Source: Pseudovibrio sp. Alg231-02
Lineage (GTDB): Bacteria; Pseudomonadota; Alphaproteobacteria; Rhizobiales; Stappiaceae
Reading direction: 5' to 3'
DNA length: 32,194 bases
NCBI RefSeq assembly: GCF_900143565.1
Contig: NZ_FREX01000013.1
Coordinates: 10,277-42,470, forward strand
Every line of letters starts with the position of its first letter. Within the stretch, counting starts at the first letter, position 1. A model generated the notes under the pieces. That model ran no database searches, was not told where the DNA came from, and worked only from the letters and a program-made list of their open reading frames with translations. Below are positions 4,060-23,033 of this stretch, in pieces. Position numbers and translations under genes: made by a program.

Positions 4060-5010
4060 TCAACCAAGAAAAACGTTATCCCGATGGTAGCTAAGGTAAG
4101 CGATTTGATTACTTGTAAAAGTACCGACTTCCCGAGCCTCAGGTTTAGAAAGCCCCAAACAATCAATCGTTTCCTGATCAAGGCAATCTGAAACAAACAG
4201 TGTCCCAGTATCACCGAACGTGATCAAACCAAGATCAAACAATCGATCAATATGGGGAGCTAGAAGCAAGCCATTTGCCCCATCTAGTCGTTCCTCCGCA
4301 GTCTCACACACACGCCATGGTTTGATATGGCTTCCAATGAGCAGCCTTTTATCCCTAACGCCTGAAACCCGGCACTTGTCCTCAAACTGTTCTATATTTT
4401 GCCGAAACCGCCCCTGTCCTCTGCGTGCTTTGATAATGGCATCTGTTTCAGTACTATCTATCGGACTGTTTTGAATAAGCACCGTTGCAATTTGATCTTC
4501 AACTTCTTCAATAAATGCCTGATCGTCGAGCTCATGCTCAACTACAATGTTTCCATTGCGTTGAAATGAGCCTAGTTGCTCAAGCTCGGAAAATAACATC
4601 TCATCGATTTTCGTTAAGTAGGCTGCTTGATTGCCATTCCCGTTTTCTTGAATAGGAGAGTACCGTTTTGGCAAAAACGGTCGAAGGTGTTCGATGTTGT
4701 CTTTGGGACGAAATGGGTGGGCTACCTTTTCCCAGGCAACGCGGACCAACCAGCCATCCAAAGACCATTGTTCACCAGTCTTACCGAACTCATCTGGCTT
4801 TGGAGCACTCAACGGCAAACCTGAGACAATACCAAAATGGCCTATCTGAGCATGAGAGAATGAAACAATGAAATCACCTACACGCATCTCACGCATAAAA
4901 TCATAAAACTGACTACGCCGCCCGTTTGATTGGCATTTTGGAGACCAGACATAACCGCCTGCAATCTCTTGTTTCGATGTTTGATTATGGTTTACCCACC
5001 AAAAGGCCAT
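4060..5010 (-). CDS. EVE-like/HNH_2 fusion nuclease, candidate modification-dependent restriction enzyme
   Basis: The start is ATG 5010, spaced well behind AAGGGATG; the ATG at 5019 would sit on that site. Residues 2-64 (FWWVNHNQTSKQEI, YVWSPK, FYDFMREMRVGDFIVSF, IGHFGIVSG) resemble the EVE/PUA-like fold, which binds modified bases in DNA. Residues about 195-265 form an HNH_2 nuclease domain: RRGQGRFRQNI, Cys-x-x-Ser-Gly, SHIKPW (His 228), NGLLLAPHIDRLFD (Asn 246, His 253). Both catalytic His and the Asn are present. A reader domain joined to an HNH nuclease suggests a type IV-like enzyme cutting modified foreign DNA. It has its own terminator and lies downstream of the radical SAM operon, probably as a separate unit. 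Confidence 0.7.
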   Translation of the reverse strand: MAFWWVNHNQTSKQEIAGGYVWSPKCQSNGRRSQFYDFMREMRVGDFIVSFSHAQIGHFGIVSGLPLSAPKPDEFGKTGEQWSLDGWLVRVAWEKVAHPFRPKDNIEHLRPFLPKRYSPIQENGNGNQAAYLTKIDEMLFSELEQLGSFQRNGNIVVEHELDDQAFIEEVEDQIATVLIQNSPIDSTETDAIIKARRGQGRFRQNIEQFEDKCRVSGVRDKRLLIGSHIKPWRVCETAEERLDGANGLLLAPHIDRLFDLGLITFGDTGTLFVSDCLDQETIDCLGLSKPEAREVGTFTSNQIAYLSYHRDNVFLG

Positions 5011-5102
5011 GCAAAACATCCCTTAAACTTTTGAAGATAAAATAATAAAGCAATAAACCGGGCAAGTTAGAACAGCGCACAGATACCTATGACTTTATTC
5101 TT

Positions 5103-5266: not shown

Positions 5267-6298
5267 CTATCGTTGCCCACAGACAACTAAATCCTCAAAA
5301 ATCGGACACCCATTTTTGCAGTTAGCCTTGTGGAGACATCCTCCGCAAGTATCTGACGAAAAGTACTTTCTGAACTGATCAAAGTTATCAGAGTTTAACC
5401 ATATATCCTTGAGACTAGTCGCATCAGTGATTTGCTCACCAGCATGCAATCCTCGTTGAAATGAGCAGGGATAGACTCGCATATCTTCAGCGACGAAAAG
5501 CGAGAAGCGTGCTGCATCACATGCATCAACAGAACTGGAGTTAACGTTGACACGGCCAAAAAGGCCACTCACACAACAAGCATCAAATCCAATCTTAAAC
5601 GGTGTACTGCTTGATGTTGCAACTTCAAAAAACCTCTGTTGCAACTCACTGTTTCGCAGTAGTTTTCGTTCAAATATTTTTCGCCCCATAGGTTTATAAT
5701 TAAGAAAAACTAAAGCATTTATACCACTAAGGAATGATGGAGGTTGCTCCAGCCATCGAATAGCTGTTTCAACAGAAACCGCATCAACTACAAAGTGAAC
5801 GTTTACTTTAACATCAGCTTTCAACAAACTCTCAATCGCGTGAGTTGTTTCATCATAAGGCTTATAAGCGCTAACAGCGACCGCCCCACAGTACTTTGAT
5901 GATGCCTGCAATATTGGAAAGGTTAGTCCTCTACCGTTTGTGGTATAATTGGGGACTATCCCTGCCTCATGTGTAATCCGCAGAATATCAATAAATTGCG
6001 GATGCTGATTTGGATTTCCACCGCCGAGCGCCACTTGATAAACACCCATATCAGCTGCTTGCTCAATGAGTTTTTCATAATCACTGACAGCCATATGATA
6101 TCCGCTTTTATCAGAACTCCGATAACAAAACGCACATCCTTTGTCACACCAGTTTGTGATGGCGATATCCATCAGTTCTGGGCCATGCGGAGCCCAAAAT
6201 GGTTCAGGTTGGCCACTATCTTCAACTCGTGCAAAAAATCCCGTTTTGGGATTAAAAATCGTAGTGTAACCTAGATCCTTAAAACGTTGAATCTTCAT
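5267..6298 (-). CDS. Radical SAM/SPASM maturase-like enzyme
   Basis: This 343-residue protein starts at ATG 6298; a GTG one codon upstream directly follows the stop of the preceding gene. Residues 51-58 hold the radical SAM cluster motif CDKGCAFC (Cys 51, 55, 58), followed by Tyr-Arg. ALGGGNPNQHP (about 90-100) is the SAM-binding glycine motif. The C-terminal third is SPASM-like: Cys 260, then VAEDMRVYPC (Cys 278), and CGGCLHKANCKNGC...C (Cys 318, 321, 327, 331, 340) would hold extra iron-sulfur clusters. SPASM enzymes typically alter peptide or protein side chains. As last gene of a coupled operon with a STAND ATPase and an NSSSTSF-motif protein, it may modify one of those partners; the substrate is inferred. 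Confidence 0.8.
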   Translation of the reverse strand: MKIQRFKDLGYTTIFNPKTGFFARVEDSGQPEPFWAPHGPELMDIAITNWCDKGCAFCYRSSDKSGYHMAVSDYEKLIEQAADMGVYQVALGGGNPNQHPQFIDILRITHEAGIVPNYTTNGRGLTFPILQASSKYCGAVAVSAYKPYDETTHAIESLLKADVKVNVHFVVDAVSVETAIRWLEQPPSFLSGINALVFLNYKPMGRKIFERKLLRNSELQQRFFEVATSSSTPFKIGFDACCVSGLFGRVNVNSSSVDACDAARFSLFVAEDMRVYPCSFQRGLHAGEQITDATSLKDIWLNSDNFDQFRKYFSSDTCGGCLHKANCKNGCPIFEDLVVCGQR

Positions 6299-6301
6299 CA
6301 C

Positions 6302-6697
6302 TTACCAGTAATTTTCGAATGCATTTATTAAGAACTTTTCTGATTTCACTTCAAACACTTCAGTACACAAGAACGCCTCTATTGCATCGACATCACTGCT
6401 AAACCCTCCCACAACGACTCTTTTCTCTTCTTCGAGAGCTTTAGTAATCTCATGAAGTATCTCTGGCGTTTGGAATAATCTTTCATCACCAATAACTTGC
6501 TGCACATCCAAGATTACACGCCCACTGTCAATTTGCTCTCGTAGCCGTTGGTAGATCTGATCAAAAAAAGAACTGATTGGCGACTTCTGATCGACCCCAG
6601 CTGCTTCAAAAAAGGCGTTTCGGTCAAACCGTTCAAACTCAACAAATATAAAAGAAGTTGACGAGCTATTTGAGACAAAATCTGTCTTAATTTTCAT
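6302..6697 (-). CDS. Small protein with N-terminal KTDFVSNSSSTSFIF motif
   Basis: This 131-residue protein has ATG 6697 behind GGGGATCAAATAC, and overlaps the preceding gene by 11 bases. Residues 1-17 read MKIKTDFVSNSSSTSFI, a near-invariant N-terminal tag I associate with many otherwise unlike bacterial proteins; this is memory of the pattern, not a search. The rest is acidic and mixed helix/strand: SFFDQIYQRLREQIDSG, then VILDVQQV, LHEITKALEEEKRVVVGGF and DAIEAFLCTEVF, which looks like a small alpha/beta domain. No catalytic motif is seen. It ends three bases before the radical SAM start, so the two are probably made together; the Ser/Thr-rich tag is a reasonable candidate site for recognition or modification. 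Confidence 0.7.
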   Translation of the reverse strand: MKIKTDFVSNSSSTSFIFVEFERFDRNAFFEAAGVDQKSPISSFFDQIYQRLREQIDSGRVILDVQQVIGDERLFQTPEILHEITKALEEEKRVVVGGFSSDVDAIEAFLCTEVFEVKSEKFLINAFENYW

Positions 6698-7058
6698 GTA
6701 TTTGATCCCCGAATTGCTTCAAAAACATCTCTAAGCAGTTTTCAACTAAATCAGCTTTAATGAACTCCAAGTCTGGCTTTATGAGGAGAACATGCCCATA
6801 ATCAAGAATTCTGGCATCAAACTTGAAATCTAAATAATGTTTCATGAATAATTCGAAACTTGCATACTCAACAGAATAGTACTTCTCATAATCTCGCTTG
6901 AAGTCGGTCGATCTAATAAATATGTCTCGATAAATTCTTTTAAGGATCTTTCCTCCATATCCTTCTGGCTGCACCATTGAAGAATGCAAGAACTCAGAAA
7001 AAGTAGGTATCTTATTGGTACCTAAGAGTGCAATTTTGTCATTTATTACTTCGAACAT
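6687..7058 (-). CDS. Unknown protein of the SMEK-NACHT/radical SAM operon (123 aa)
   Basis: The likely start is ATG 7058, overlapping the STAND gene stop by 20 bases; a TTG at 7088 in the same frame would add ten residues. The 123-residue product is soluble, rich in Phe, Tyr and Lys, with the segments TFSEFLHSSMVQPEGYGG, ILKRIYRDIFIRSTDFKRDY and FELFMKHYLDFKFDARILDY. No known domain, signal peptide or membrane segment is seen. Overlap with both neighbours shows it belongs to the four-gene unit. It could be an adaptor, a target-sensing partner or a second substrate of the radical SAM enzyme; none of these is shown by the sequence. Confidence 0.65.
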   Translation of the reverse strand: MFEVINDKIALLGTNKIPTFSEFLHSSMVQPEGYGGKILKRIYRDIFIRSTDFKRDYEKYYSVEYASFELFMKHYLDFKFDARILDYGHVLLIKPDLEFIKADLVENCLEMFLKQFGDQIHEN

Positions 7059-9672
7059 TTTCGACTCGTGATCTAATTTGTCTACCAAACTCTGAGATAA
7101 TTGTTGAGTTCGCTCTTTCTAGAGCCAAAAGACAATCCCGCTTCTTGCCTCCTTCCAGTATTCTGACTGCATTGGAGTGCGTTTCATTTCTGCTAGAGAA
7201 ACTTGCAAAAGCGGCTAACTGAAGAAAACAAACGTATCTTTCATCCTCAATATCGTCGATTTCATCGACAATGATTGAGTTAGTCTGGTCAACTATATCA
7301 TCAAGATTTCGGGCAAAGTTTTTTTGCATAAATGACGTGGCAGTATCATCATCTAAGTTATTCAAATAGCTAGTAAGGACACTAACATTAACTACATCCG
7401 TTTCTCCGGAGTAAAAAATCAAATAATAAACTAGCTCACGAAGTGGCGTTAGAAGGTAGTGGTTAGATTGCGCGCTGATGAGTACCTCTTGCGAAAATTC
7501 AACATCCTGTTCCTTCTGAAGTTCAAATGGGAGTGAGGACAAAATAAATGGAAACAGCGATAAAAACTCATCGAAATTTTCAACTTCATCTTGAACAAGC
7601 TCATTACTGCTCTTTCGAGCTAGCAAGTAGCTATATTTGCCGACTCCTTCAGATGACTGTAATTGTTGTACTGCAGCCCATCGATCTCGAAACCATTCAA
7701 TTCCTTCTTTCGTTGCAGTATCAACCCAATATGCCGCTATGATGTAATCCCTCAGCTCATCATACGTAAAACTGACAGCTTCTTTTTCTAATGATGTCAA
7801 AGATTCCTTTGGGATTTCTCTTCGGAGAATAACCTCTTCGTCTAACAGCCAATCGATTACTTTCCGCTCATCATCTGAGAAATCGTTTACTTCAATCGAG
7901 GAGGTATCTTTTGCAATAAAGGCCTGCTCAACCAACTTAAAAAGAACTGAAATGACATTTCTTAACTTAGATTTTTTGACTATCTTTTCTAGATATTTTT
8001 TAAATATATCAATCTTATAAAGTTCGTACACATCGCCGAGATCTTCATTGCGATAGAGTTCACAGAAGATCCTCATAAGCAAAAGATCTCGCCGTAAAAA
8101 ACTCCTAGCGCGTTGTGAAAGATTAGCCTTGATAGAGAAGTGCTTGAAGTATGCTTTCAGCATTCTTCCTCTAACTCGATCAGAAATACCTCCTTCAATT
8201 TTCTTTATGTAAACGCTTTTACAATCTACCGCATCTTGCTTTAAGTCTTGAAATTTATGTTCGAAGAACTCGCTTCTGCATGTTACGAGTACCTTGATAC
8301 CTTCATATTGAGAAACTGCACTCAGAAAATCCTTCAGATCAAAATTGATCTCATCCAGTTTTCGAACTTCATTTAGTCCATCGATAAAAACTACAATGTT
8401 TTTATCCAACTTCTTGCTCAACCGAGAGAGTAAATCTAATAACTCAAATTTATCTCGGATATCATTCAAGTATTTGTTGTTGGTTATGTAATCAACCAAA
8501 CTGACTGTTTGTTGCCCGTTCAACTCACGAGCAGGAATGTAAATTGCTGGAATGTTAAATTTGCCGCAAAAATCATCTGCCAAGTTGCAAATAAAATTTG
8601 TCTTTCCCTGCCCGGCTGCTCCAGTAACCATTAGAAGTTGAGCCAATGAGTATTCAAAATATTTTAGTGTATCGCTTAGAATATTTGAGATTTCCATTGC
8701 GGCGCCCATCATCTGATATTTCATCACCTGATGCATTTGCTCAAACTCAGGTTTAACAGTGAGAGCCTCACCACCTCGATAGAAATTGAGCTGTCCTACT
8801 TGCTCGTTTGCGAGATGGAGCGTGTCATAGTTTTTGGAAAGTTCCTTTGTCATCTCTAACAGAGATTTAGATTGGTCGGAGATACAATCGATCGACACTA
8901 TATCGGGGTCTAGTTGATCTACCCCTTGAAGAGACAGAGTTTCATTTAACCGCTCAAAATCTATTACTTCTAACTTATCAAAGGCCTTACCTTTAAAGTG
9001 AGTTGGATTAAGAAAAAATCGAGCCAAATCTTTATATGGCTTAGTTTCTGCAAATATTTCTGGGATGTACTTCCCAGAGCTCTTCTCATATTCAATTCTC
9101 TTATTACTCAGTTTGAAGAAATGCTCTTGATCTTGCAGAAAGCTCTCAAAGCGTTGATGGACTTCGAACTCTCGACGAACAATAGCCTCAAATTCGCTTA
9201 CCTTTGCTGTATCAAAACCTTTCACGACTTTTAATAAATCGCGGTAATCTAGGATATCCTCGTCAGGCTTAAAAGCTAGCTCTGACGCGAGAGATAATAA
9301 TTTTTTTGAAGTATATGAAGACTGCTTTGAAGTTAATACATATACATAAACCTTATCGAATTTATTATTTAACTTATGTTTTTTAAATTGCTTTAATGTA
9401 TGCTCTATCTTTGCTGATTTTGCAGATGATGTTACTTGAAAGGAAACTCGAGCACCTTCATCACCAAGGTCAACAGCGGGATAGTTATCTTCGTATGAGT
9501 TCATATTTTTCAAGTTCGGACAATCATACAGATAACCGAGAATTGGAATAAAAATATCTTCTGCGTGAGTATTAATATCAAAGTTGCCAACTGAGTTGTT
9601 AACATCAACCTCATGCTGGATCTTGCTAAAGCAAGAGGAGATACTATCAATTAGACTATCTCGAACGGCCAT
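7039..9672 (-). CDS. STAND ATPase with N-terminal SMEK domain and NACHT-type NTPase (Avs/NLR-like defence protein)
   Basis: About 877 residues from ATG 9672; in-frame ATG 9681 and GTG 9690 are alternatives. Residues 1-150 resemble the SMEK domain: YPAVDLGDEGARVSFQVTSS followed by KSAKIEHTLKQFKK and VYVYVLTSKQ. The NTPase core has Walker A GAAGQGKT (about 351-358), Walker B VVFIDGLNE (427-435, the NACHT-style D-G-x-N-E) and sensor-like VLVTCRSE (462-469). A long helical C-terminus of more than 300 residues, without clear repeats, would be the sensor. Proteins of this layout act as bacterial NLR-like antiphage proteins: the C-terminus detects a phage product, the ATPase oligomerises and the N-terminal effector fires. 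It is first in the operon, and its AT-rich coding sequence suggests transfer. Confidence 0.8.
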   Translation of the reverse strand: MAVRDSLIDSISSCFSKIQHEVDVNNSVGNFDINTHAEDIFIPILGYLYDCPNLKNMNSYEDNYPAVDLGDEGARVSFQVTSSAKSAKIEHTLKQFKKHKLNNKFDKVYVYVLTSKQSSYTSKKLLSLASELAFKPDEDILDYRDLLKVVKGFDTAKVSEFEAIVRREFEVHQRFESFLQDQEHFFKLSNKRIEYEKSSGKYIPEIFAETKPYKDLARFFLNPTHFKGKAFDKLEVIDFERLNETLSLQGVDQLDPDIVSIDCISDQSKSLLEMTKELSKNYDTLHLANEQVGQLNFYRGGEALTVKPEFEQMHQVMKYQMMGAAMEISNILSDTLKYFEYSLAQLLMVTGAAGQGKTNFICNLADDFCGKFNIPAIYIPARELNGQQTVSLVDYITNNKYLNDIRDKFELLDLLSRLSKKLDKNIVVFIDGLNEVRKLDEINFDLKDFLSAVSQYEGIKVLVTCRSEFFEHKFQDLKQDAVDCKSVYIKKIEGGISDRVRGRMLKAYFKHFSIKANLSQRARSFLRRDLLLMRIFCELYRNEDLGDVYELYKIDIFKKYLEKIVKKSKLRNVISVLFKLVEQAFIAKDTSSIEVNDFSDDERKVIDWLLDEEVILRREIPKESLTSLEKEAVSFTYDELRDYIIAAYWVDTATKEGIEWFRDRWAAVQQLQSSEGVGKYSYLLARKSSNELVQDEVENFDEFLSLFPFILSSLPFELQKEQDVEFSQEVLISAQSNHYLLTPLRELVYYLIFYSGETDVVNVSVLTSYLNNLDDDTATSFMQKNFARNLDDIVDQTNSIIVDEIDDIEDERYVCFLQLAAFASFSSRNETHSNAVRILEGGKKRDCLLALERANSTIISEFGRQIRSRVENVRSNK

Positions 9673-11984: not shown

Positions 11985-12209
11985 TCACGGTCCCATAGCT
12001 TTCCGTCTCCCGTTGCCACGTCTCCAATTGAAGAGATGGCGTGGTAGTTCTATATTGGCGACAAGCGCCAGCTGCTCCATCTCATGGAACCATGCAGCAG
12101 GAAAACGCCCCGCTTTAGCAGCATTGCAAATTGCTGACGAGCCAACTCCCAGTCGTTTTGAAAGCACGTCAACCTTGAGTTCCTTAACAACATTACTTGC
12201 GCTTTTCAT
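11985..12209 (-). CDS. Cro-like phage regulator
   Basis: A product of about 74 residues starts from ATG 12209; ATG 12224 is in frame but lies inside the operator-like dyad at 12219-12235, which favours the downstream start. NVVKELKVDVLSKRLGVGSS and AICNAAKAGRFPAAWFHEME make a compact helix-turn-helix with the recognition turn at GVGSSAICNAAKAG, similar to Cro/CII-type phage regulators. It diverges from the CI-like gene at 12296, the standard lysis/lysogeny arrangement. It probably represses the CI promoter and opens the early genes downstream. A role in lysis commitment is inferred. Confidence 0.7.
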   Translation of the reverse strand: MKSASNVVKELKVDVLSKRLGVGSSAICNAAKAGRFPAAWFHEMEQLALVANIELPRHLFNWRRGNGRRKAMGP

Positions 12210-12218
12210 GGTGTGATT

Positions 12219-12278
12219 ATTCATTTTTAGTGAACTCAGTCAACATCAACAAAATAGAAATATCCATTATTTGTGAAT
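12219..12278. promoter_or_regulatory. Divergent operator region of the Cro/CI switch (two 17-bp dyads)
   Basis: Two copies of an ATTCA-N7-TGAAT-type dyad: ATTCATTTTTAGTGAAC at 12219-12235 and ATCCATTATTTGTGAAT at 12262-12278. They match the two perfect copies at 12780-12826. They sit between the divergent Cro-like and CI-like starts and are the expected repressor sites. Confidence 0.55.
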
Positions 12279-12295
12279 TATGCGACAGTAGCACC

Positions 12296-12610
12296 ATGAA
12301 GAACACAGATGAATTCAGCCATGATAATGTCGCCAACAGGTTGACTTGGTTAAGAAACTTCCTAGGACTGAACCAAAAAGAGTTCGCCAAAAGCATCGGC
12401 GTTTTGCCTACTCAGCAAAATAACTGGGAAGCAGCCAAACAGCGCCTATCTCTTCAAGGGGCGCTAAAAATAAACTCTATTTATGGAACGTCTCTGGATT
12501 TTCTATTTCTAGGAAGAGCCGATACGTTGCCGCAAAACATGCGCAAAGCTTGGGTATCAAGACCCCTTGACAAAAATTCAATAAAATCAAGCGATAAACC
12601 TGAAATTTGA
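12296..12610 (+). CDS. CI-like XRE-family phage repressor
   Basis: The start is ATG 12296; the open frame upstream to 12197 crosses the operators and is unlikely to be translated. The 104-residue protein has an XRE helix-turn-helix at about residues 12-65: RLTWLRNFLGLNQKEFAKSI, PTQQNNWEAAKQRL and GALKINSIYGTSLDFLFLG. No C-terminal protease (LexA/Ser-Lys) domain is present, so induction would not be by RecA-driven self-cleavage. It probably keeps the prophage silent by binding the 17-bp dyads at 12219-12278 and 12780-12826. The short Ser/Lys-rich tail is plain. Confidence 0.75.
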   Translation: MKNTDEFSHDNVANRLTWLRNFLGLNQKEFAKSIGVLPTQQNNWEAAKQRLSLQGALKINSIYGTSLDFLFLGRADTLPQNMRKAWVSRPLDKNSIKSSDKPEI

Positions 12611-13666: not shown

Positions 13667-13873
13667 ATGAAGAAAGGCCCAACCTATCAAGAACTGGAAC
13701 AGGCAACGCGCTTTGCAGCATGGATTGTTGTTGAGTACGGCGAGCAGTACGCCCCCATTTTTGATAGGCTGGAAGCAGAACTAAATAAGCTTTCACCACG
13801 TGAGCGTGCAGTACAGTTCTTGAATTCAAACCCTCCTCAAACCCTCGAAGGTGGCGTGAAGGCAATTCGCTGA
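13667..13873 (+). CDS. Small hypothetical phage protein (68 aa)
   Basis: This 68-residue frame has ATG 13667 four bases after the GapR-like stop, so it is probably coupled to it. TYQELEQATRFAAWIVVEYG is a predicted helix, then a charged amphipathic stretch, DRLEAELNKLSPRERAVQFL. No known family. The 3' end overlaps the converging integrase stop by 37 bases. It is probably a phage accessory gene in the early unit. Confidence 0.5.
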   Translation: MKKGPTYQELEQATRFAAWIVVEYGEQYAPIFDRLEAELNKLSPRERAVQFLNSNPPQTLEGGVKAIR

Positions 13874-15174
13874 AGCCACTCCCGTTTATGCTCCAAGGTT
13901 GGGCCGTGACCGTATTTAGGCCGTTGGAATTTATGCCCCATAAGCATTGCAATAATCTTCTCCGGCGCTTCAACCGCAGTCAACCGATCCTCGAATGTGT
14001 GACGCAACGAATAGGCCGTATGCTTTCGCGGGTTTGGCCTTAGGTCATTTTCAAGCAAAAATTTATTCACCGTTGCAGAGAGGCTTCCAGCATTGTCGTG
14101 ATAGCGGCTGAAGCCTCGCTTAAACTCCTGCATTGCCATAAGAGACACACCCACGAGCGGAATTGTTCTGGTGGTGTGATCTTGCTTCAAAAGTCGCTCT
14201 TCTGGAGCAACCTCAATATAGGGCACCTTGCCTTCAAGATGTATCGTGTTTTCAGTCAGATTTGCCGCTTCTGACAACCGTAATCCAGTCTCAACGATTA
14301 GGTACAGGATAGACCTAGCGCTTGCATTCAATCCATCAAGCGCACCATCTGCCAGGATATTCTTTTGAACAAACTCAGGGTCAAATGGATGGCGTTGTTC
14401 TGTCCTCTCCCCCTCAAGTCGCAACTCTCCGAACGGTGACTGTATATCCAGTCTGAAATGATTAATGACCGTGCGCATCATTTTATTTATGTGCCCGATT
14501 TGCTTGTTGGCAGTTCCAATTTGGATTTGCCCAGCCTCCACGCGATCTTGCAGGCACTCACGAAAATCAATGGCGTCATTACGAGTAAGTTCTAAGAGAG
14601 GTTTATTCCCGGTGATTTCAGTTAGGCTTTTTAAGGCAAGTATCTTCGGGTTTCTCCACCGTCTTACCTGGTCCTTGGACATGTTTGAGAGATAAGTTTT
14701 TTGTGTCTTCTCGAACTCAGAGAATAAATCTTCAATCTGAATTTGGGGCGCTTTTTCACCACCGAGAACGCCCGCCACATCCACGATTGGAGGTCTATGT
14801 TGTGTTGTCTGAAGAGCCGATAACCGCGCCATGATTTCGCTGAGAGGTCGCCCGGCCACCTCATCAGAGGTCACATAATCAAAGCCTAGCACCCTTGCCC
14901 GCCGCCTCGCGGCTTCATATCGCTTCTTTGCTTCTTTCGCTTGACCATCTGCAAGGCCACGCCAGTACTCCTCAGTATGAGCATTTATCTTTGCGGCGCT
15001 TCTCGCAGCACGTAATCCCTTCGGATCTTCTGAAACAAGAATCCCTGTGGACGCCCTTGCAAACGTGCGTTTATCGAATGCTCTGAAAACCTCTGGAACA
15101 CGTCTAACATATATCCACCGTCCATCCTTGACGGACAAATAGTCAGGGTTCCCGCTGCCGATAGTTCTAGCCAT
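13837..15174 (-). CDS. Tyrosine recombinase / phage integrase
   Basis: This 445-residue protein has ATG 15174. The N-terminal 50 residues form an arm-type domain ('DYLSVKDGRWIYVRRVP'), as in alphaproteobacterial tRNA-site integrases. The catalytic domain has Arg 299 (TGLRLSEAANL), Lys 330 (LLKQDHTTRTIPL), the Arg-His pair 391-392 (AYSLRHTFEDRL), His 414 (LMGHK) and the nucleophile Tyr 421 (PKYGHG). The first box II position is Tyr 388, where the common pattern has His or Lys. The gene reads away from the att site about 100 bases to its right and probably acts with a host factor to insert the prophage into tRNA-Ser. Confidence 0.9.
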   Translation of the reverse strand: MARTIGSGNPDYLSVKDGRWIYVRRVPEVFRAFDKRTFARASTGILVSEDPKGLRAARSAAKINAHTEEYWRGLADGQAKEAKKRYEAARRRARVLGFDYVTSDEVAGRPLSEIMARLSALQTTQHRPPIVDVAGVLGGEKAPQIQIEDLFSEFEKTQKTYLSNMSKDQVRRWRNPKILALKSLTEITGNKPLLELTRNDAIDFRECLQDRVEAGQIQIGTANKQIGHINKMMRTVINHFRLDIQSPFGELRLEGERTEQRHPFDPEFVQKNILADGALDGLNASARSILYLIVETGLRLSEAANLTENTIHLEGKVPYIEVAPEERLLKQDHTTRTIPLVGVSLMAMQEFKRGFSRYHDNAGSLSATVNKFLLENDLRPNPRKHTAYSLRHTFEDRLTAVEAPEKIIAMLMGHKFQRPKYGHGPTLEHKREWLQRIAFTPPSRV

Positions 15175-15277
15175 TGTACAACCGAATCCATTTGTTACCC
15201 GTTTGGGGTAACATTATGGGTAACATATTGACTTGTAAACACGAAAAAACTCAATAATATCAATGATTGACATGGCA

Positions 15278-15301
15278 GTTCGAAGCCCACCCTCTCCGCC
15301 A
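15278..15301 (+). repeat. attR: 3' fragment of a tRNA-Ser gene
   Basis: 15278-15301 reads as the T-loop, acceptor strand and CCA end of a tRNA-Ser: TTCGAAG, CCCAC, CCTCTCC, G, CCA. The bases to its left do not pair as a T-stem, so the tRNA half was replaced by phage DNA. The fragment keeps its downstream hairpins, while the intact tRNA should lie at the prophage's left end, outside the window. The integrase gene starts about 100 bases away, as expected for an attachment site. tmRNA ends similarly but the acceptor fits tRNA-Ser better. Confidence 0.75.
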
Positions 15302-15319
15302 TCTATCTTTATGATAGAT
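15301..15319. other. Short stem-loop next to attR
   Basis: ATCTATC (15301-15307) pairs with GATAGAT (15313-15319) around TTTAT. It begins at the last base of the tRNA-Ser CCA and precedes the terminator at 15331. It may help end or process the tRNA transcript, or simply be part of the tRNA 3' flank. Confidence 0.35.
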
Positions 15320-15322
15320 AAG

Positions 15323-15356
15323 CAAAAAAAAACCCACCTTTATGGTGGGTTTTTTG
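15323..15356 (+). terminator. Rho-independent terminator of the tRNA-Ser unit
   Basis: AACCCACC (15331-15338) pairs with GGTGGGTT (about 15344-15351), with a run of A before and six T after. It is the former terminator of the tRNA-Ser gene, now separated from the intact tRNA by the prophage. Confidence 0.7.
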
Positions 15357-15513
15357 TTGTCTACGCATGAAAAAACTGTCCGCTTTTCGGGGGAATTGTA
15401 GCGCGCATTCTCGAAACGGAAACTGCGTCAAAATTGAGCGCGATCGTCCATACACAACGAACAACATCTTCACAACACTCGCCTGACGCACTCTTTAAAG
15501 TAAGTGCTGATCG

Positions 15514-15861
15514 CTATAAATCCCGCAGTACCCTGTTGCCTTCCATATAAATGGTACACTTTTTCTTGATATTTTGCTTTTTTCGCCCAATTTCACAACG
15601 TCTGAGAGCATCTCTCACAGCGCGCTCTCGTGTTGTGTTGTTTTTATTATATCCGTATGACCAAGCGCCATTTTTACCAATAACTGTCGCGAAGGCTTTC
15701 CGATGTTCGTAGTGCTTGTACTTTTCTATCGCCCTTTCCAATTTGCTTAATTCTTGCGAGTTAGAGACGATACGTCCTCCAGGTTGTGTGTCTAGTGTCT
15801 GGCAGCCAGTCAATGCTGCACATAATAGTATAGGCAGCATGGTTGAATTATTAACTTTCAT
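15514..15861 (-). CDS. Small lipoprotein with DUF4189-like domain
   Basis: The start is ATG 15861, behind GGGGATGCAAATTC; upstream frame residues are not a signal. The 115-residue product has a signal segment (STMLPILLCAALTGC) with lipobox LTGC, the Cys near residue 20. The mature part, KAFATVIGKNGAWSYGYNKN followed by an Ala-Leu-x-x-Cys helix (RDALRRCEIG) and KKKCTIYMEG, matches the 'G-A-x-G-Y ... AL..C ... C' shape of DUF4189, predicted disulfide-bonded periplasmic domains. It lies just outside the prophage, downstream of speB on the same strand. Confidence 0.65.
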   Translation of the reverse strand: MKVNNSTMLPILLCAALTGCQTLDTQPGGRIVSNSQELSKLERAIEKYKHYEHRKAFATVIGKNGAWSYGYNKNNTTRERAVRDALRRCEIGRKKQNIKKKCTIYMEGNRVLRDL

Positions 15862-16065
15862 GAATTTGCATCCCCAAATTTGAATTATAAATAATGATGA
15901 TATCACTGACCTCAATATCAAGTAACATACGTGATACATTATGAGATTCGGCGTAAGTTTTGAATTTATTAAACGGCTCCATGAATGATTTTCTTGGCGA
16001 TATGATCCGTAATATTTTTAAGCCTTCAATAGCAGCTCTTTCAAAATCAGCGTGCACCTCAAAAG

Positions 16066-16926
16066 CTATCGCCTTGAGTTCAGCGCCGCAGCCATCAGGC
16101 GATAGGTGATCTGAGCTGCTGTGAAGTCCCATGCAGCATTTCCATCTGGTGCCAGTTCAACCACGTCGAGGCCAACGCATTTTCGGCACTTTAGTGCATG
16201 CTCTACCAGATGCAGGGATTGGTAATATCCAAGACCTCCAGGCACAGGCGTGCCGGTTGCTGGCATTTGAGAGGGATCGAGACCGTCCACATCGAAGGAG
16301 ATGTAGATGTGCTCAGGGAAATCCTCAGGCAGATCGACAGCATGCAATCCTTTGGTGACCAACTCTTCTGCATCGATAAAGAAAACTTTGTTGTCTTTCC
16401 GGCTGTCTATTTCCTGCTGGCAGAGTGCGCGTACGCCGAATTGTGCCAGGGAGTTGCCCTCTTCTACCAGGAGGTTCATGACAGAAGCGTGGGAGTGTTT
16501 TTCGCCTTGATAGGCGATGCGCAGGTCTGCGTGCGCATCAACTTGCACAATGCCAACCGGTTTGCCGAGCGCACGGGCAACGCCTGAGACCGCGCCGTAA
16601 GACAGCGAGTGTTCGCCGCCCAGTGTGACTGGAATTTTACCGGCTTTGACGGCGTCTTCCGTACGCTGAGCGAGGCGCTCCATGACGTCTGGCAGAGGTC
16701 CATCGCAGTCGACTGGTGCTTGCGTTGCAATGCCGGAGGCGCATGGCTCAACGCTATTGCAGCCACGTTCCAATTCATTACTTGCCTCAATGATAGCTTC
16801 GGGGCCTTTGATAGTACCTGAGCCGTAAGAGACGGTGCGCTCCAGTGGGACTGGGATAATTGTGAAGAGAGCGTCTTCTGCTTTGCGTTCTGCTTCAGTC
16901 AGCTCACTGTCAAGAAAAACAGACAT
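16066..16926 (-). CDS. speB: Agmatinase (ureohydrolase family)
   Basis: Hydrolyses agmatine to putrescine and urea in the cytoplasm using two Mn ions. The 286 residues are usual for the family. Metal ligands appear in order: GGEHS (103-107, His 106), DAHAD (130-134) and FDVDGLDP (211-218, Asp 212 and 214). It is the last gene of the polyamine operon, starting nine bases after nspC, and supplies putrescine as substrate for the dehydrogenase upstream. Other ureohydrolases such as arginase or guanidinobutyrase have the same motifs, but the adjoining arginine decarboxylase makes agmatinase the natural reading. Confidence 0.9.
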   Translation of the reverse strand: MSVFLDSELTEAERKAEDALFTIIPVPLERTVSYGSGTIKGPEAIIEASNELERGCNSVEPCASGIATQAPVDCDGPLPDVMERLAQRTEDAVKAGKIPVTLGGEHSLSYGAVSGVARALGKPVGIVQVDAHADLRIAYQGEKHSHASVMNLLVEEGNSLAQFGVRALCQQEIDSRKDNKVFFIDAEELVTKGLHAVDLPEDFPEHIYISFDVDGLDPSQMPATGTPVPGGLGYYQSLHLVEHALKCRKCVGLDVVELAPDGNAAWDFTAAQITYRLMAAALNSRR

Positions 16927-16935
16927 TTCGTACCT

Positions 16936-18111
16936 TTAGGAAAGACGGTTCAGGAAGTCGTTGTAGGAGAACTCGCGAATGATTTTAAGATCATCACTTT
17001 CAGAGTTCCAGAGCGCGATTGCTGGCAGGGGAACTCCGTTGAAGGTGTTGGTTTTCACCATGGAATAGTGAGCCTGATCGAGGAATGCAAAGCGATCACC
17101 AATATTCAGCGGCTCTGCCCGTGTGTAATCGCCGATCACGTCACCTGCGAGGCAGGATGGGCCGCCAAGGCGGTATGTGTGCCCCTCCTCCACTTCATCC
17201 AGCATGGCCGGGCGATAAGGAGCTTCAATCACATCCGGCATATGGCAGGTTGCGGAAATGTCGACAATTGCCAGTTTCATGGCGTTTTGGGGTAGGTCCA
17301 GCACTTCACCTACCAGAATGCCCGCATCCAGAGCAACTGCTTCGCCCGGTTCCAGATAAACTTCCAGCCCTGTTGTTGCGCGCACATCCTTGACGAAGGC
17401 AATCAGCGCTTCACGGTCGTAGTCTTCACGCGTGATGTGGTGACCACCGCCGAAGTTGATCCATTTCAGCTGACTGAAATACGGCGCAAGCTTATCTTTC
17501 ACCGCCTCCCATGTGCGCTGGAGTGGTTCAAACTCCTGTTCACACAACGTGTGCATATGGATGCCATCGACGCCCTCCAATACCTCTGCATTTAATTGCG
17601 AGATTGGAAAGCCCAGGCGAGAGCATGGGGCGCATGGGTCGTATTTCGCAACCTCGCCTTCAGAGTGCTCAGGATTGATGCGCAGGCCCACATCGACTTT
17701 GTGTCTGGCAGTGCGGACATTGGGCAGGAAACGATCTTTTTGAGCAGGAGAGTTGAAGATCATATGGTCGGTGTAGCCAATGATCTCATCAATCTCGCTT
17801 GCTTTATAACCAGCGCAGAACGTTGCAACTTCTCCACCGTATTTTTCGCGGGCAAGGCGTGCCTCATAAAGGCCTGAGGCGCAGGTGCCTTCCAGATATT
17901 CGCGCACAACAGGGGCCAGTGCAAACATGGAAAAGGCTTTCAACGCGGAAAGAACGTGCGCGCCAGAGCGATCAGCCACGTCCTTAAGCACAGAAAGGTT
18001 GTGGCGGACCGCAACCTCATCAACGACGAAACAGGGGCTTGGGACCCGGGAAAGATCAAATGTCCTGAACGCTCCCGCATCGCCAGCCTGTGTCTGCATC
18101 ATGTCAGCCAT
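16936..18111 (-). CDS. nspC: Carboxynorspermidine/carboxyspermidine decarboxylase
   Basis: PLP enzyme of the alanine-racemase fold that decarboxylates carboxyspermidine to spermidine. The sequence has 'RVPSPCFVVDE', the PLP-lysine stretch VLSALKAFSMF (Lys 58 from this start), CSRLGFPIS, the HMHTLCEQE segment, INFGGGHHIT, and the C-terminal LEPGEAVALDAG. The start is uncertain: ATG 18111 follows the upstream stop by four bases, ATG 18099 lies inside, and ATG 18144 would overlap that gene by 29 bases. It is coupled to the dehydrogenase gene upstream and to speB downstream, which completes the pathway. Confidence 0.9.
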   Translation of the reverse strand: MADMMQTQAGDAGAFRTFDLSRVPSPCFVVDEVAVRHNLSVLKDVADRSGAHVLSALKAFSMFALAPVVREYLEGTCASGLYEARLAREKYGGEVATFCAGYKASEIDEIIGYTDHMIFNSPAQKDRFLPNVRTARHKVDVGLRINPEHSEGEVAKYDPCAPCSRLGFPISQLNAEVLEGVDGIHMHTLCEQEFEPLQRTWEAVKDKLAPYFSQLKWINFGGGHHITREDYDREALIAFVKDVRATTGLEVYLEPGEAVALDAGILVGEVLDLPQNAMKLAIVDISATCHMPDVIEAPYRPAMLDEVEEGHTYRLGGPSCLAGDVIGDYTRAEPLNIGDRFAFLDQAHYSMVKTNTFNGVPLPAIALWNSESDDLKIIREFSYNDFLNRLS

Positions 18112-18115
18112 CAGC

Positions 18116-19327
18116 TTAGAACTGTACCGGGCCGTCGAGCTCATGCACCTGCCAGGGCAGGCCGTGCTTGTTCAGCATGTCCATGAAGTTATCCGGGTCC
18201 AGCTGCTCCATGTTCCAAACACCCGGCTCGTTCCAGTTCCCTTTCAGGATCTGTGCCGCACCAATCATTGCCGGAACACCAGTGGTGTAGGAAACAGCCT
18301 GCGAGCCAACCTCTGCATAACACTCTTCGTGGTCACAGATATTGTAGATGTAATAGGTCTTCTCGCCGGAGCCGTCTTTCGCCTGACCGGTTGCAATGTC
18401 GCCAATGCAGGTCTTGCCTTTTGTCAGCTCGCCCAGGTCACTTGGGTCCGGCAGAACGGATTTCAGGAATTGCAGCGGGATGATTTCCTTACCTTCGTGC
18501 ATGACTGGTTCAATTGAGGTCATGCCAATGCCTTCAAGCACGCGGACGTGGTTGATGTAAGCATCGCCGAACGTCATCCAGAAACGCGCCCGTTCAATCT
18601 CGGAAAAGTGCGTTTTCATGCTTTCCAGTTCCTCATGATACATGAGGTACATGTTTTTCTCGCCAACGCCCGGGAAGTCGAAAGCAACTTTGTGGGTCAT
18701 CGCTGGTGAGCTGACCCAGTCGCCTTTTTCCCAATGGCGTGCATCTGCTGTTACTTCACGGATGTTGATTTCCGGGTTGAAGTTGGTTGCAAATGCCTTG
18801 CCGTTGTCGCCGCCGTTGCAATCAAGAACGTCGATCTGGCGGATGGTGTCGAGCTTGTGCTTTTTCAGCCATGTTGCGAAGACGGAAGTAACCCCCGGAT
18901 CGAAACCAGAGCCGAGGATTGCGGTCAGGCCAGCCTCTTTAAAGCGCTCCTGATAGGCCCACTGCCAGTGGTATTCGAACTTTGCTTCGTCTTCCGGCTC
19001 GTAGTTTGCGGTGTCCAGATAGTTGATGCCAGCTTCCAGACAGGCATCCATCAGCTTCAGGTCCTGATACGGCAGTGCCAGGTTCACCAGCAGCTCTGCG
19101 CCGCTCTCTTTGATGAGGGAAACAACTGCTGCAACGTCCATCGCGTCAACTTCAGCTGTCTTGATGGTAACGCCGGTCTTTGCCTTCACGCTTGTTGCAA
19201 TGTCATCGCACTTAAACTTGCGACGAGATGCGAGCGTAACCTCAGAAAAGATATCCGAATTCATTGCCATTTTGTGTACGGCTGCGGAGGAAACACCACC
19301 TGCGCCGATTACCAGAGTCTTACTCAT
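18116..19327 (-). CDS. Carboxynorspermidine/carboxyspermidine dehydrogenase (saccharopine dehydrogenase family)
   Basis: This 403-residue NADPH enzyme condenses putrescine (or diaminopropane) with aspartate semialdehyde to a carboxy-polyamine. The Rossmann fingerprint GAGGVSSAAV lies at residues 8-17; NYLDTANYEPEDEAKF and ILGSGFDPGVTSVFATWL are typical of the saccharopine-dehydrogenase-like family, and the C-terminal PAMIGAAQILKGNWNEPGVW suits the polyamine branch. It sits between speA and nspC, which excludes lysine metabolism as the likelier role. The start is ATG 19327, 22 bases past the speA stop. Homologues are called CASDH or NspD. Confidence 0.85.
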   Translation of the reverse strand: MSKTLVIGAGGVSSAAVHKMAMNSDIFSEVTLASRRKFKCDDIATSVKAKTGVTIKTAEVDAMDVAAVVSLIKESGAELLVNLALPYQDLKLMDACLEAGINYLDTANYEPEDEAKFEYHWQWAYQERFKEAGLTAILGSGFDPGVTSVFATWLKKHKLDTIRQIDVLDCNGGDNGKAFATNFNPEINIREVTADARHWEKGDWVSSPAMTHKVAFDFPGVGEKNMYLMYHEELESMKTHFSEIERARFWMTFGDAYINHVRVLEGIGMTSIEPVMHEGKEIIPLQFLKSVLPDPSDLGELTKGKTCIGDIATGQAKDGSGEKTYYIYNICDHEECYAEVGSQAVSYTTGVPAMIGAAQILKGNWNEPGVWNMEQLDPDNFMDMLNKHGLPWQVHELDGPVQF

Positions 19328-19348
19328 GCCTATTCCCCGGTCCTTGGA

Positions 19349-21238
19349 TTATTCGTAGTAAGTGTAGCCGTTGATGCTGTCGCGGTAAGCGGCAACCAAC
19401 GTGCGTCGATCAGCGTTCTTCAGTGTGCCAGCGGAGACTGCCTCATCGATAAGCTTGCGGAAAGCGTCTACGCAGTCGCGTGGATCATATTCCACATAGG
19501 AAAGAACCTGCGAGATTGTATCACCTTCAACTTCCTGAAGCAGATCAAATCCTCCATCAGCGCGCAGGTCAATGGTCGCCACATTGGTATCGCCAAACAG
19601 GTTATGCAGATCACCCAGCGTTTCCTGATAGGCGCCAACAAAGAAAACGCCAAGATAGTATGGCTTGCCTTCTTCGAGGGTATGGACCGGCAAAGATGGT
19701 GAGATGCCGTCCGCCAAAATGAACTTGTCTACTTTACCATCACTGTCACAGGTGATGTCAGAAAGAACAGCGCGGCGATCTGGTGCTTCATTCAGGCGTT
19801 GTAACGGCACAATCGGATGAAGCTGATCGATGGCCCAGACATCTGGCAGGGACTGGAACAAAGAGAAGTTACAGTGGTAGATATCCGCCACCTTCTCCAG
19901 CTGCTCGTCGATCTCGGGAGCAACACCTGTCGGTGGCGCCAGCTCTTTAATCTTGGACATCAAATGCAGGTAAATGCGCTCAGAACGACCCATCTGGCGC
20001 AGGTCGATATACCCACGGCGGAAGAGCGCACGCAGCTCATTGCGGTAGAATGAGGCGTCGTTCAAACATTCCTGAAGCCGCTCTGCGCTAAGGTACCCCT
20101 CAACGGCGGCAAGATCTGCAACCATGTGGTGATCGTCTTTTTCAGGCTCAGGGGCGGTTGGCGCATCAAACAGCGTTGCTTCAAGGACATTGAAGAGCAG
20201 CATTGAAGAGGTCGCGACAACGGCACGGCCACTTTCAGTGATCAATGTGGGGTGCGTGAGTTCTGCCTCATCCATTGCATAAGCAACGGTCTCCACCACA
20301 TTGGCGCAGTATTCTTCAACCGAATAGTTGGTCGAGTTTTCAATCGCCTTCTTCTCACCGGTGTAATCGACCCCAAGGCCACCACCGAGATCAAGATGGG
20401 TGAGCTCCGCCCCTTCTCTTGTCAGCTCGACAAAATAGCGACAGGCTTCGCCAACTGCACGGCGGACGTCATTAACATCAGGAACCTGCGAGCCGAGATG
20501 AGAGTGTTGCAACTTCAGGCAGTGCAAGAGTTTCGCATCGCGCAGTTTGTCAATCACTGAGACCAGCTGGTCCGTGTTCATGCCAAATGTGGAGCGATCG
20601 CCAGAGCTTTCTTCCCACTTACCGCCAATCTGGTTCGTCAGTTTAACGCGCACACCGAGCAAAGGCTCCTCACCCAGCTCCTCAACCACATTAATAACGG
20701 TGTCGAGTTCTTTCGGGCTTTCCAGCACGATGATGGTGTTAAAACCCAGTTTGCGCGAAAGAATTGCAAGACGAATGAACTCTTCGTCTTTTACACCGTT
20801 ACAAACAATGAGAGCTTCTTTAGGCAAGCGGTGCGCAAGCGCAATAACAAGCTCAGGCTTGGAGCCAGCTTCCAGCCCGTAAGAGTAAGGACGGCCAAAT
20901 TCAACGATACGGTCGATAACCTGCGCCTGCTGGTTTACCTTGATCGGGAAAACACCGCGATATTTGCCTTTGTAGCCGACGCGATTGATTGCATCTGCCA
21001 TGGAATTGTTGATGTGAGCGATTTCGTTTTGCAGGAACGAACTTACGCGCAGCAAAAGTGGAGAATGGATACCACGTTGTTCAAGGTCGTGAACGATCTC
21101 CGGCAGACTCACCTTGGGAGCGTCCGGCATCAAAGGATTACTAAGTGCTATATCGCCGTTTGGCAGCACAGAGAGAAGATCTTTACCCCAGCGCCCCATA
21201 CCATAGACGGCATGGGCAGTACCTTGATTATTTGGCAA
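19349..21238 (-). CDS. speA: Biosynthetic arginine decarboxylase
   Basis: Converts arginine to agmatine and CO2; PLP-dependent, group IV. The 629 residues are full length. The PLP lysine lies in FPIKVNQ (Lys 100); HSHLGSQ (245-251) and the glycine loop GGGLGVDY (285-292) bind the phosphate. The start is TTG 21238, with AAGGGGATAAATGG upstream; an ATG four bases earlier opens only a four-codon frame (ATG GTT GCC AAA TAA). First gene of the operon, followed at 22-base spacing by the dehydrogenase. VYGMGRWG near residue 11 is the family's expected N-terminus, supporting this start. Confidence 0.9.
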   Translation of the reverse strand: MPNNQGTAHAVYGMGRWGKDLLSVLPNGDIALSNPLMPDAPKVSLPEIVHDLEQRGIHSPLLLRVSSFLQNEIAHINNSMADAINRVGYKGKYRGVFPIKVNQQAQVIDRIVEFGRPYSYGLEAGSKPELVIALAHRLPKEALIVCNGVKDEEFIRLAILSRKLGFNTIIVLESPKELDTVINVVEELGEEPLLGVRVKLTNQIGGKWEESSGDRSTFGMNTDQLVSVIDKLRDAKLLHCLKLQHSHLGSQVPDVNDVRRAVGEACRYFVELTREGAELTHLDLGGGLGVDYTGEKKAIENSTNYSVEEYCANVVETVAYAMDEAELTHPTLITESGRAVVATSSMLLFNVLEATLFDAPTAPEPEKDDHHMVADLAAVEGYLSAERLQECLNDASFYRNELRALFRRGYIDLRQMGRSERIYLHLMSKIKELAPPTGVAPEIDEQLEKVADIYHCNFSLFQSLPDVWAIDQLHPIVPLQRLNEAPDRRAVLSDITCDSDGKVDKFILADGISPSLPVHTLEEGKPYYLGVFFVGAYQETLGDLHNLFGDTNVATIDLRADGGFDLLQEVEGDTISQVLSYVEYDPRDCVDAFRKLIDEAVSAGTLKNADRRTLVAAYRDSINGYTYYE

Positions 21239-21577
21239 CCATTTATCCCCTTCCAGAATTAATTTCGCCCCATTTACTCATGGTCTACCCATCTGACAAG
21301 CCCAATATTGGTGTTCTAAACATCAGAGGTGGGAGAACAGGTGCACAAGTCACTTTTTGCTGAAACTAAATCTACAACCTAAGATTTTGGTGGGAGTGCT
21401 GTTTCAGCAATTTTAAAGAGGAGGAAGATTGGCTAAAGACAATGCAGTAGGCAGCTCCCCTATTTCTTGCGGATATCTCATTTGCTTATTTATTTGTGAC
21501 CAATCTAGTCATAGATTAATTGCACTAACTGGAATACTTCTCCACGGGACTATGTTTTTAGCGACTGCAGAGCAACC
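21239..21577. other. Gap between speA and the XRE regulator
   Basis: This 339-base stretch holds the divergent upstream regions of speA and the XRE regulator gene. I see a 50-codon TTG-started frame with a strong ribosome-binding site (21429-21581) and an inverted repeat at 21502-21517, both described separately. No clear promoter consensus is visible for speA. Confidence 0.5.
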
Positions 21578-21581
21578 ATGA
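21429..21581 (+). CDS. Possible 50-aa leader ORF coupled to the XRE gene
   Basis: A frame of 50 codons starts at TTG 21429, four bases past AGGAGG (21419-21424). It ends in a TGA that overlaps the ATG of the XRE gene at 21578 (ATGA). It has a hydrophobic middle (GYLICLFICD) and no known motif. The overlap suggests translational coupling, but the TTG start and length leave chance possible. Confidence 0.3.
   Translation: MAKDNAVGSSPISCGYLICLFICDQSSHRLIALTGILLHGTMFLATAEQP
21502..21517. promoter_or_regulatory. Inverted repeat upstream of the XRE gene, possible operator
   Basis: AATCTA (21502-21507) and TAGATT (21512-21517) form a perfect 6-bp dyad around GTCA, about 60 bases before the XRE start. 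It may be an operator for the XRE protein's own gene, though it also lies inside the possible leader ORF. Confidence 0.3.
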
Positions 21582-21997
21582 CTTGGCAACAGCGGCTTCA
21601 AAAACTAAGAAAACAGAATGATCTGACGGTCAAAGATTTAGCTCGACGTGCAAACGTTGGTTATGACAATCTTTATAAGATCGAAAAAGGTTTAATAGAT
21701 AATCCACGTGGTGATACTCTGGGAAAGTTGGCACTAGCTCTTGGCGTCAACGAACAGTTTCTTCGTTTCGGAATTCACGGTGTTAATGATGTCGACTTTA
21801 TAGAAGACACTGAGATTCTAAGTGAGATGGAAGAGCATGTGAAGCAGACTGATCTGGATTTAATTGATCAGGCGTGGACCCAGGCATTAGAAATCGAAGC
21901 GCAGGTGTATGGCTCGGGTAGCAAAGGACCTATGAATTTCGTTTCCATGATGTTTGCTCGTATCTATCACGAGATGCTGAAACGAAATGAGCAATAA
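21578..21997 (+). CDS. XRE-family helix-turn-helix regulator
   Basis: This 139-residue protein has an N-terminal XRE domain (residues 3-62): RLQKLRKQNDLTVKDLARRA, VGYDNLYKIEKG and GDTLGKLALALGVNEQFLRF. The C-terminal half is acidic and helical (DTEILSEMEEHVKQTDLDLI, then DQAWTQALEIEAQVYG) and probably a sensing or dimer part. It is divergent from speA, so it may regulate the polyamine operon, which is only a guess from location. It could also regulate itself through the dyad at 21502-21517. Confidence 0.75.
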   Translation: MTWQQRLQKLRKQNDLTVKDLARRANVGYDNLYKIEKGLIDNPRGDTLGKLALALGVNEQFLRFGIHGVNDVDFIEDTEILSEMEEHVKQTDLDLIDQAWTQALEIEAQVYGSGSKGPMNFVSMMFARIYHEMLKRNEQ

Positions 21998-22969: not shown

Positions 22970-23002
22970 AGCAACTTGCCATTCTGTGAAACTGGTTTAG
23001 AC

Positions 23003-23033
23003 GCAAAAAACGCTCCATTTCTGGAGCGTTTTA
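23003..23033. terminator. Bidirectional terminator between 22586 gene and nosL
   Basis: CGCTCCA (23011-23017) pairs with TGGAGCG (23022-23028), extended by AAAA/TTTT. Read on the minus strand it is followed by TTTTTT, on the plus strand by TTTT. It serves the converging 22586 gene and the nos operon. Confidence 0.8.

Follow-up and report, generated by a model that had tools for sequence, protein, structure and literature searches.

A stretch of 32,194 nucleotides from Pseudovibrio sp. Alg231-02 (contig NZ_FREX01000013.1, positions 10,277 to 42,470 of the forward strand; hereafter the window, to whose numbering all coordinates refer) contains a prophage with four coupled genes on the minus strand. 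In order these encode a STAND ATPase, a protein of 123 residues (p123), a protein of 131 residues (p131) and a radical S-adenosylmethionine (SAM) enzyme with a SPASM domain. They are proposed to form a mobile defence cassette of the STAND type, in which sensing would fall to a small protein that a tag-directed radical SAM enzyme renders competent; from the sequence comparisons below we place the probability of this at about 0.55. The proposal is based upon a conserved cassette, exchange of its effector, a portable N-terminal tag, the linkage of that tag to the enzyme and the covariation of the two, all of which were computed here. What is new is the N-terminal motif as a portable tag that reaches beyond this operon; a literature search of partial coverage found neither the tag nor the cassette described.

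The four open reading frames (ORFs) lie where the original prediction, made from the sequence alone, had placed them, and the overlaps and motifs that it had claimed (GAAGQGKT, D-G-L-N-E, CDKGCAFC and NSSSTSF) are all present. The STAND gene (7039..9672) encodes 877 residues, or 883 in the longest frame, starting from a GTG at 9690. It overlaps the p123 gene (6687..7058, or 133 residues in the longest frame from a TTG at 7088) by 20 bases, and this in turn overlaps the p131 gene (6302..6697) by 11 bases. The p131 gene abuts that of the enzyme (5267..6301), which has 344 residues starting from a GTG; if the ATG one codon later is used the gap is three bases.

Conservation of the cassette

With the p131 family as sole query, 26 loci were obtained from genome contigs, and in 23 of these all four genes are present in the same order (22 by tblastn, plus locus L042, whose p123 was recognised from its ORF and from the alignment only). 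By record title the loci come from alpha- and gammaproteobacteria, desulfobacterial lineages, a cyanobacterium and others, and one is a metagenome-assembled genome (MAG) labelled as archaeal, with a contig of 5.2 kb. The flanks differ among loci in ORF sizes and strands, as judged without sequence comparison of the flanking genes, and copies of the cassette are found on proviruses, plasmids and other contigs. The constant gene order in 23 of 26 loci indicates that the cassette is real, and goes beyond a chance neighbourhood. The STAND match of L023 falls into two pieces, and the p123 of this locus was omitted from the p123 alignment (A4) because its frame is broken. Three loci from deltaproteobacterial MAGs (L044–L046) have no STAND match within the fetched stretch; they do have the enzyme, together with two or three ORFs that carry the tag by pattern.

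The STAND protein was used as a second anchor. On viral contigs it gave nine loci, five of which (L127–L131, where L127 is the window's own provirus) match through the ATPase. All five have p131 and the enzyme, with p123 detected by tblastn in four and as an ORF in L131. The other four match over the first 210 residues only and neither p131 nor the enzyme was seen in them, although only L132 is a fair negative because the contigs of L133–L135 end 0.4 to 2.2 kb past the match. Among plasmids there are 24 records, seven with at least 80% coverage of the query and 17 covering 13–26%. The seven accessions with high coverage are the seven that carry the enzyme (at 60–80% identity); all have the four genes in order (7/7) and five are typed as conjugative. 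They represent four different cassettes, since four of the records share identical protein accessions. In plasmid L139 the STAND gene is split into two annotated ORFs, and in L155 p123 is unannotated and was detected by tblastn. The STAND gene in two frames in L023 and L139 could be a decayed copy or a sequence error.

With the enzyme as third anchor (E 1e-40) the genome searches gave 1/398 in the window's phylum (its own genome), 5/395 in the phylum of G419 and 2/385 in the class of G398, with the centre genome counted in each case. At the new places a tagged ORF lies beside the enzyme in 5/5, and the full cassette is present in two (L148 and L149). There is no STAND match on the 9.9-kb contig of L150, and contig ends truncate L147 and L151. 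Each of 25 genomes searched (25 of the 26 genome loci, L037 being left out) has one enzyme at E 1e-40. The same linkage is thus found from all three anchors, p131, STAND protein and enzyme. The original prediction would have been refuted had homologues of the four genes not occurred together elsewhere, and the recurring gene order does not refute it. As a separate observation, L044, L045, L046 and L150 are all of deltaproteobacterial type; each has the enzyme plus between one and three p131-like ORFs that bear the tag, and no STAND match was seen in them.

p123 is a constant member of the cassette, with rows from 25 loci and the window in alignment A4. It contains the motif YYSVEY and has 262 homologues at E ≤ 0.001, with no Pfam domain among the 120 matches listed. 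The predicted model has a predicted local distance difference test (pLDDT) score of 82.9 and no usable match in the PDB. Neither p123 nor p131 reaches a Pfam or NCBIfam cut-off or belongs to a PADLOC family.

A portable N-terminal tag

p131 comprises an N-terminal tag, MKIKTDFVSNSSSTSF (residues 1–16; 6650..6697, minus strand), and a small alpha/beta body. The tag is the proposed site of recognition and modification by the enzyme. There are 125 p131 homologues at E ≤ 0.1, and DFVSNSSSTSF is invariant across the 42 p131 rows of alignment A1. In the predicted model (pLDDT 87.3) residues 5–12 lie between two strands, outside regular structure, which would suit an exposed site; the least certain parts of the model are the last residue, followed by the first ten residues.

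The tag is not confined to p131. The motif MKxKxDF[VI][ST]NSS[ST][ST]xF opens 201 ORFs among the loci covered by this count, of which 189 are distinct because some contigs were taken twice. After removal of the first 18 residues the bodies fall into 44 clusters (single-linkage BLAST, E 1e-4), an upper figure for the number of independent families because remote homologues could have been separated. With p131 as query, viral contigs yielded 19 loci, of which 18 match through the first 17–30 residues only, and ten of these 18 also match the enzyme, at 31–35% identity. The first 21 residues of p131 match phrog_7397 weakly (E 0.047), and the same family is matched by 8 of 50 tagged viral proteins.

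The linkage is also seen from the enzyme. The enzyme alignment (A2) has 249 relatives on viral contigs. The best 80 of the 249 were kept, giving 79 loci; one is the window's own provirus and the other 78 were counted, including three STAND cassettes and four loci on contigs already found via the tag. Tagged ORFs are present in 51 of the 78 by the strict pattern and in 61 by a relaxed one. All 143 tag matches (134 distinct) lie on the strand of the enzyme, and in 139 of them a start codon is exactly six residues ahead of the aromatic residue. As a control, the NSSS tetramer was counted in the same DNA: the enzyme's strand has 173 in the tag register and 13 outside it, the opposite strand two and 38. 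The tag nearest to the enzyme lies at a median distance of 227 bases (maximum 4835).

The tag is constant at the protein level, as judged from its serine codons and from the limits on position 7. In 161 distinct tags, for which the pattern required Asn 10 and Ser 11, positions 12 and 13 are both serine in every case although serine or threonine was permitted. These serines are encoded by AGY and TCN codons in comparable numbers (77/84 at position 12 and 67/94 at position 13). A tag found later, that of L149, has threonine at 13. When position 7 was also allowed to be L, I, M or W it was F, Y or H in 119 of 120 start-linked matches, and the remaining one is evidently a chance match.

The occurrence of one tag near related enzymes, on many unrelated proteins of viral contigs, points to an undescribed system of protein modification. 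A wider reading, to which we give slightly less than an even chance, is that one clade of SPASM enzymes installs the same modification in the NSSS tag of many otherwise unrelated proteins, which large phages and some bacteria encode in arrays. The STAND cassette would have adopted one enzyme–substrate pair; its small protein, once modified, would serve as an external sensor or gate where Avs2 has a built-in sensor, and the effector would be freely exchanged. If so, the NSSS tag is a simple sequence handle for many phage proteins of unknown function, and ties phage biology to the radical SAM modification of proteins.

Near two of the tag arrays, eight of ten neighbouring proteins match PHROGs families, none of them structural. 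In L052, L053, L054 and L058–L061 the radical SAM gene has a reverse transcriptase gene related to phrog_1423 within ~2 kb of it; this overlaps the start of the radical SAM gene in L061, and is downstream of it in L053. The tag array of L061 (398–3854) lies near genes for nicotinamide phosphoribosyl transferase and NAD synthetase (NAD salvage) and for tRNA-His guanylyltransferase.

Covariation of tag and enzyme

The tag residues covary with the clade of the adjacent enzyme. The viral loci were divided into group A and group B, where group B comprises all viral loci with an enzyme outside group A, some of them absent from the enzyme tree, and distinct sequences were counted. Position 4 is arginine in 72 of 76 group A tags and lysine in 57 of 58 group B tags. 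All 26 STAND tags have serine at position 9, and the 134 distinct tags of viral groups A and B all have threonine there; in the deltaproteobacterial loci it is threonine in five and serine in three. STAND loci have one tagged ORF each (26/26), group A loci two to six, and group B loci mostly one (31/46). Being near the enzyme, constant and covarying, the tag is the best candidate for the enzyme's substrate.

In the tree (96 rows, a quick method with SH-aLRT support only, after 24 of 120 enzymes had been dropped by hand for thinning) the 26 enzymes of STAND cassettes group together with two changes; L042 and the three deltaproteobacterial enzymes join them at an unresolved fork. Two viral enzyme clades are separate from this group. 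L042, L069, L131 and L136 have long branches.

These data bear on the possibility that p131 is a decoy. Large viral contigs have enzyme loci with up to six tagged ORFs; if large phages carry radical SAM enzymes and arrays of tagged proteins, p131 could be a host-side copy, and the STAND protein be triggered when the phage enzymes or tagged proteins engage it. However, the cassette has its own enzyme, grouped apart from the viral ones, and its tag differs slightly from theirs at position 9, making this explanation quite improbable.

A number of observations weigh against the proposal of a defence cassette with a tag-directed enzyme. Eight of the 18 tag-only viral loci have no enzyme match within the fetched stretch (one of these, L005, shares its contig with L083, which has the enzyme). 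In 17 of the 78 enzyme-anchored loci there is no tag even with the relaxed pattern, some of them being cut by contig ends, and that pattern was picked after inspection of the misses. The enzyme-anchored scan was not wholly blind to the tag, because alignment A2 held seven viral enzymes that had been found through it. Two phages examined out of 167 records with enzyme relatives, RB16 and RB43 (L136, 4932–6086, and L137, 4917–6062), have no tag near their distant relative of the enzyme; the wider enzyme family therefore does not require the tag, which belongs to a part of it. Between 5020 and 9800 promoter-like sites are not above those in shuffled sequences, and no terminator-like site was found. 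Structure comparison found no recognised fold for p131 or p123, and for that reason a gating role for them is put forward conditionally.

The tag might alternatively do no more than mediate binding or localisation, with either the enzyme or a shared partner from the host recognising it, and the enzyme acting elsewhere. Extreme constancy is what a binding motif may show. On the other hand tag residues vary with the clade of the enzyme next to them, most tags are near that enzyme, and the closest solved relatives of the enzyme act on peptides. We regard docking alone as unlikely, noting that it is compatible with any of the other explanations and that the odds given to the various readings are not mutually exclusive.

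The radical SAM/SPASM enzyme

The enzyme has a CxxxCxxC motif at residues 52–59 (CDKGCAFC), and a C-terminal cysteine pattern C-x2-C-x5-C-x3-C-x8-C at 319–341. It scores above all cut-offs for Radical_SAM (PF04055, 49.5 bits, cut-off 29.5), SPASM (PF13186, 24.4 bits, cut-off 21.5) and TIGR04085 (29.8 bits). The closest solved relatives are SuiB (5v1q), PqqE and SkfB, all of which are peptide modifiers. These relatives and the SPASM cysteine pattern lead us to expect a peptide or a protein as substrate. The likeness extends to MftC as the nearest named relative, but the enzyme does not reach an equivalog cut-off in the best 25 of 51 NCBIfam matches (the top match, MftC, scores 60.7 bits against 265). 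The relatives in the 167 phage records, mostly of enterobacterial phages, have ~29–30% identity among the 40 matches listed.

The enzyme shares with the viperins a radical SAM core and an antiviral setting, with weak similarity to the pVip profile in the core (41.8 bits). It could then make a small antiviral molecule, with p131 as a structural helper. Yet it scores 36.3 bits on the NCBIfam viperin model, whose cut-off is 180; it also has a SPASM domain and a tagged protein partner, and the linkage to the tag would be left unexplained. This explanation is very improbable.

We suggest that the SPASM enzyme recognises the NSSS tag at the N-terminus of p131 and modifies it there. The most likely chemistry would be a radical cross-link or an oxidation within F7-V8-S9-N10-S11-S12-S13. 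An aromatic residue followed by x-Ser/Thr recalls the substrates of cyclophane-forming enzymes. A three-residue cyclophane would fit the aromatic-x-Ser/Thr start of the segment, and oxidation of serine is equally open. To our knowledge few folded substrates of radical SAM enzymes are known. The original prediction had the radical SAM enzyme maturing a small partner that would license the STAND protein or be guarded by it; the idea of such a partner is strengthened, and the candidate can now be named as p131, with a tag common to unrelated proteins beside related enzymes.

The STAND protein and exchange of the effector

The STAND protein consists of a SMEK domain at the N-terminus (Mrr/PD-(D/E)XK-like, residues ~11–150), a linker with the motif KYIPEIF, an ATPase of NACHT type (~346–475) with Walker A GAAGQGKT and Walker B FIDGLNE, and a short C-terminus. 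In Pfam it matches SMEK_N (PF21941) with 153.2 bits against a cut-off of 27 (E 5.1e-45) and NPHP3_N with 24.9 bits against 24.8, and NACHT, at 24.0 bits, falls slightly under the cut-off of 26.7. A solved homologue of the SMEK domain is the Mrr domain of an Mrr-APAZ prokaryotic Argonaute (pAgo; PDB 26bh, E 6.3e-29). E38, D68, Q79 and T81 of the SMEK domain are at least 90% conserved in the STAND alignment (A3), and could form a site of PD-(D/E)XK type. The nuclease-type N-terminus is predicted to cut DNA.

The PADLOC profile of Avs2 (AVAST type 2), PDLC02164, matches residues 248–657 (E 5.8e-20), and an Avs2-like ATPase is kept in all four of the other STAND proteins scanned (L041, L042, L131 and L149). 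By contrast the N-terminus varies, being SMEK, a DUF676 esterase, or either of two others with no Pfam match. The DUF676 serine esterase domain replaces SMEK in L042 (29.1 bits, cut-off 20.3), where residues 7–235 also match PADLOC LmuA (4.8e-12). The N-termini without a Pfam match are those of L041 and L149, the latter with a weak PADLOC match to DUF626_VIII (19.8 bits, residues 12–182). In STAND conflict systems effectors are commonly swapped on a constant core. By eye, the STAND N-terminus in the cyanobacterial locus L041 (4397–7540) has a GTCxD...GHA pattern suggestive of a transglutaminase or papain-like fold, with no profile match.

The long C-terminal part of Avs2, several hundred residues, is its sensor. 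The cassette STAND protein resembles Avs2 in its ATPase region, but has 877 residues compared with 1317–1576 in the Avs2 models, scores 42.8 bits against an NCBIfam equivalog cut-off of 1000, and has a SMEK effector and three small partner genes. The Avs2 match ends at ~657, leaving ~220 residues where the profile has ~840 more positions. There is thus no room for an Avs2-like sensor, and for this reason we infer that p131 and p123 fill that role.

Two other known systems are related in part. The SMEK/Mrr-APAZ short pAgo systems (PMC10810196) have a homologous N-terminal nuclease domain, but in the cassette SMEK is fused to a NACHT-type ATPase. The four cassette proteins have no Pfam or NCBIfam match to APAZ or Argonaute, and the PADLOC Aga profiles match only residues 6–182 of the STAND protein. 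Kaur et al. 2020 (PMC7159879) describe ternary conflict systems of VMAP and FtsH, centred on an NTPase and with radical-SAM-modified peptides, one class having an FxSxx motif. The cassette likewise centres on an NTPase, and pairs a gene for a radical SAM(-SPASM) enzyme with a substrate that is proposed to be modified. It differs from those systems in that the proposed substrate is a protein of 131 residues with an NSSS tag common to many proteins, and none of the four cassette proteins matches vWA, MoxR or FtsH in Pfam.

Proposed mechanism

Modified p131, probably with p123, would bind the short C-terminus of the STAND protein and replace the long built-in sensor of Avs2. Infection may then alter the modified p131 partner or supply its ligand, whereupon the ATPase would oligomerise. 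By analogy with the biology of SMEK, Avs and NACHT proteins, the N-terminal effector, here the SMEK nuclease, would degrade DNA and halt phage growth. Modified p131 (with p123) would thus act as sensor or gate of the nuclease. If this is correct, the cassette is a type of STAND defence whose sensing needs the radical modification of a partner protein. That the STAND protein serves in defence had been part of the original prediction; homology (SMEK as the Mrr-type domain of short-Argonaute systems, and the Avs2-like ATPase), the exchange of effectors and the mobile settings support such a role, in which an anti-phage effect would be expected.

The same components could be arranged as a toxin and a licensed antitoxin. 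Modified p131 (with p123) would inhibit the STAND nuclease, and phage attack on the SAM supply, the enzyme or p131 would lift the brake. The tight coupling of all four genes, the single tagged ORF in every STAND locus (26/26) and the presence of p131 with every ATPase-matched STAND protein seen would all be expected of such an arrangement. However, STAND proteins of the Avs type are activated by binding of a ligand, not by loss of an inhibitor. The present evidence is compatible with either a brake or a sensor; we consider the antitoxin doubtful, preferring p131 as the probable sensor.

Prophage setting

The cassette is flanked on one side by genes for a minor tail protein and the terminase small subunit, and on the other by replication-type genes, a repressor (12197–12610) and an integrase (13837–15174). 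The provirus of the window is also present in IMG/VR (locus L001).

An HNH endonuclease gene lies beside the cassette on the minus strand (4060..5019; PF13391 40.5 bits, PADLOC HNH 1.1e-23) and was not counted as part of it. This prophage site may therefore hold two defence loci, the HNH gene being the second; by tblastn over the fetched loci its matches are only in copies of the window's own provirus or genome. The right end of the prophage is probably near 15.2 kb. Beyond the integrase (window 13837–31424) there are apparent chromosomal genes, for arginase, arginine decarboxylase and an ABC transporter, with a tRNA-Lys at 31349.

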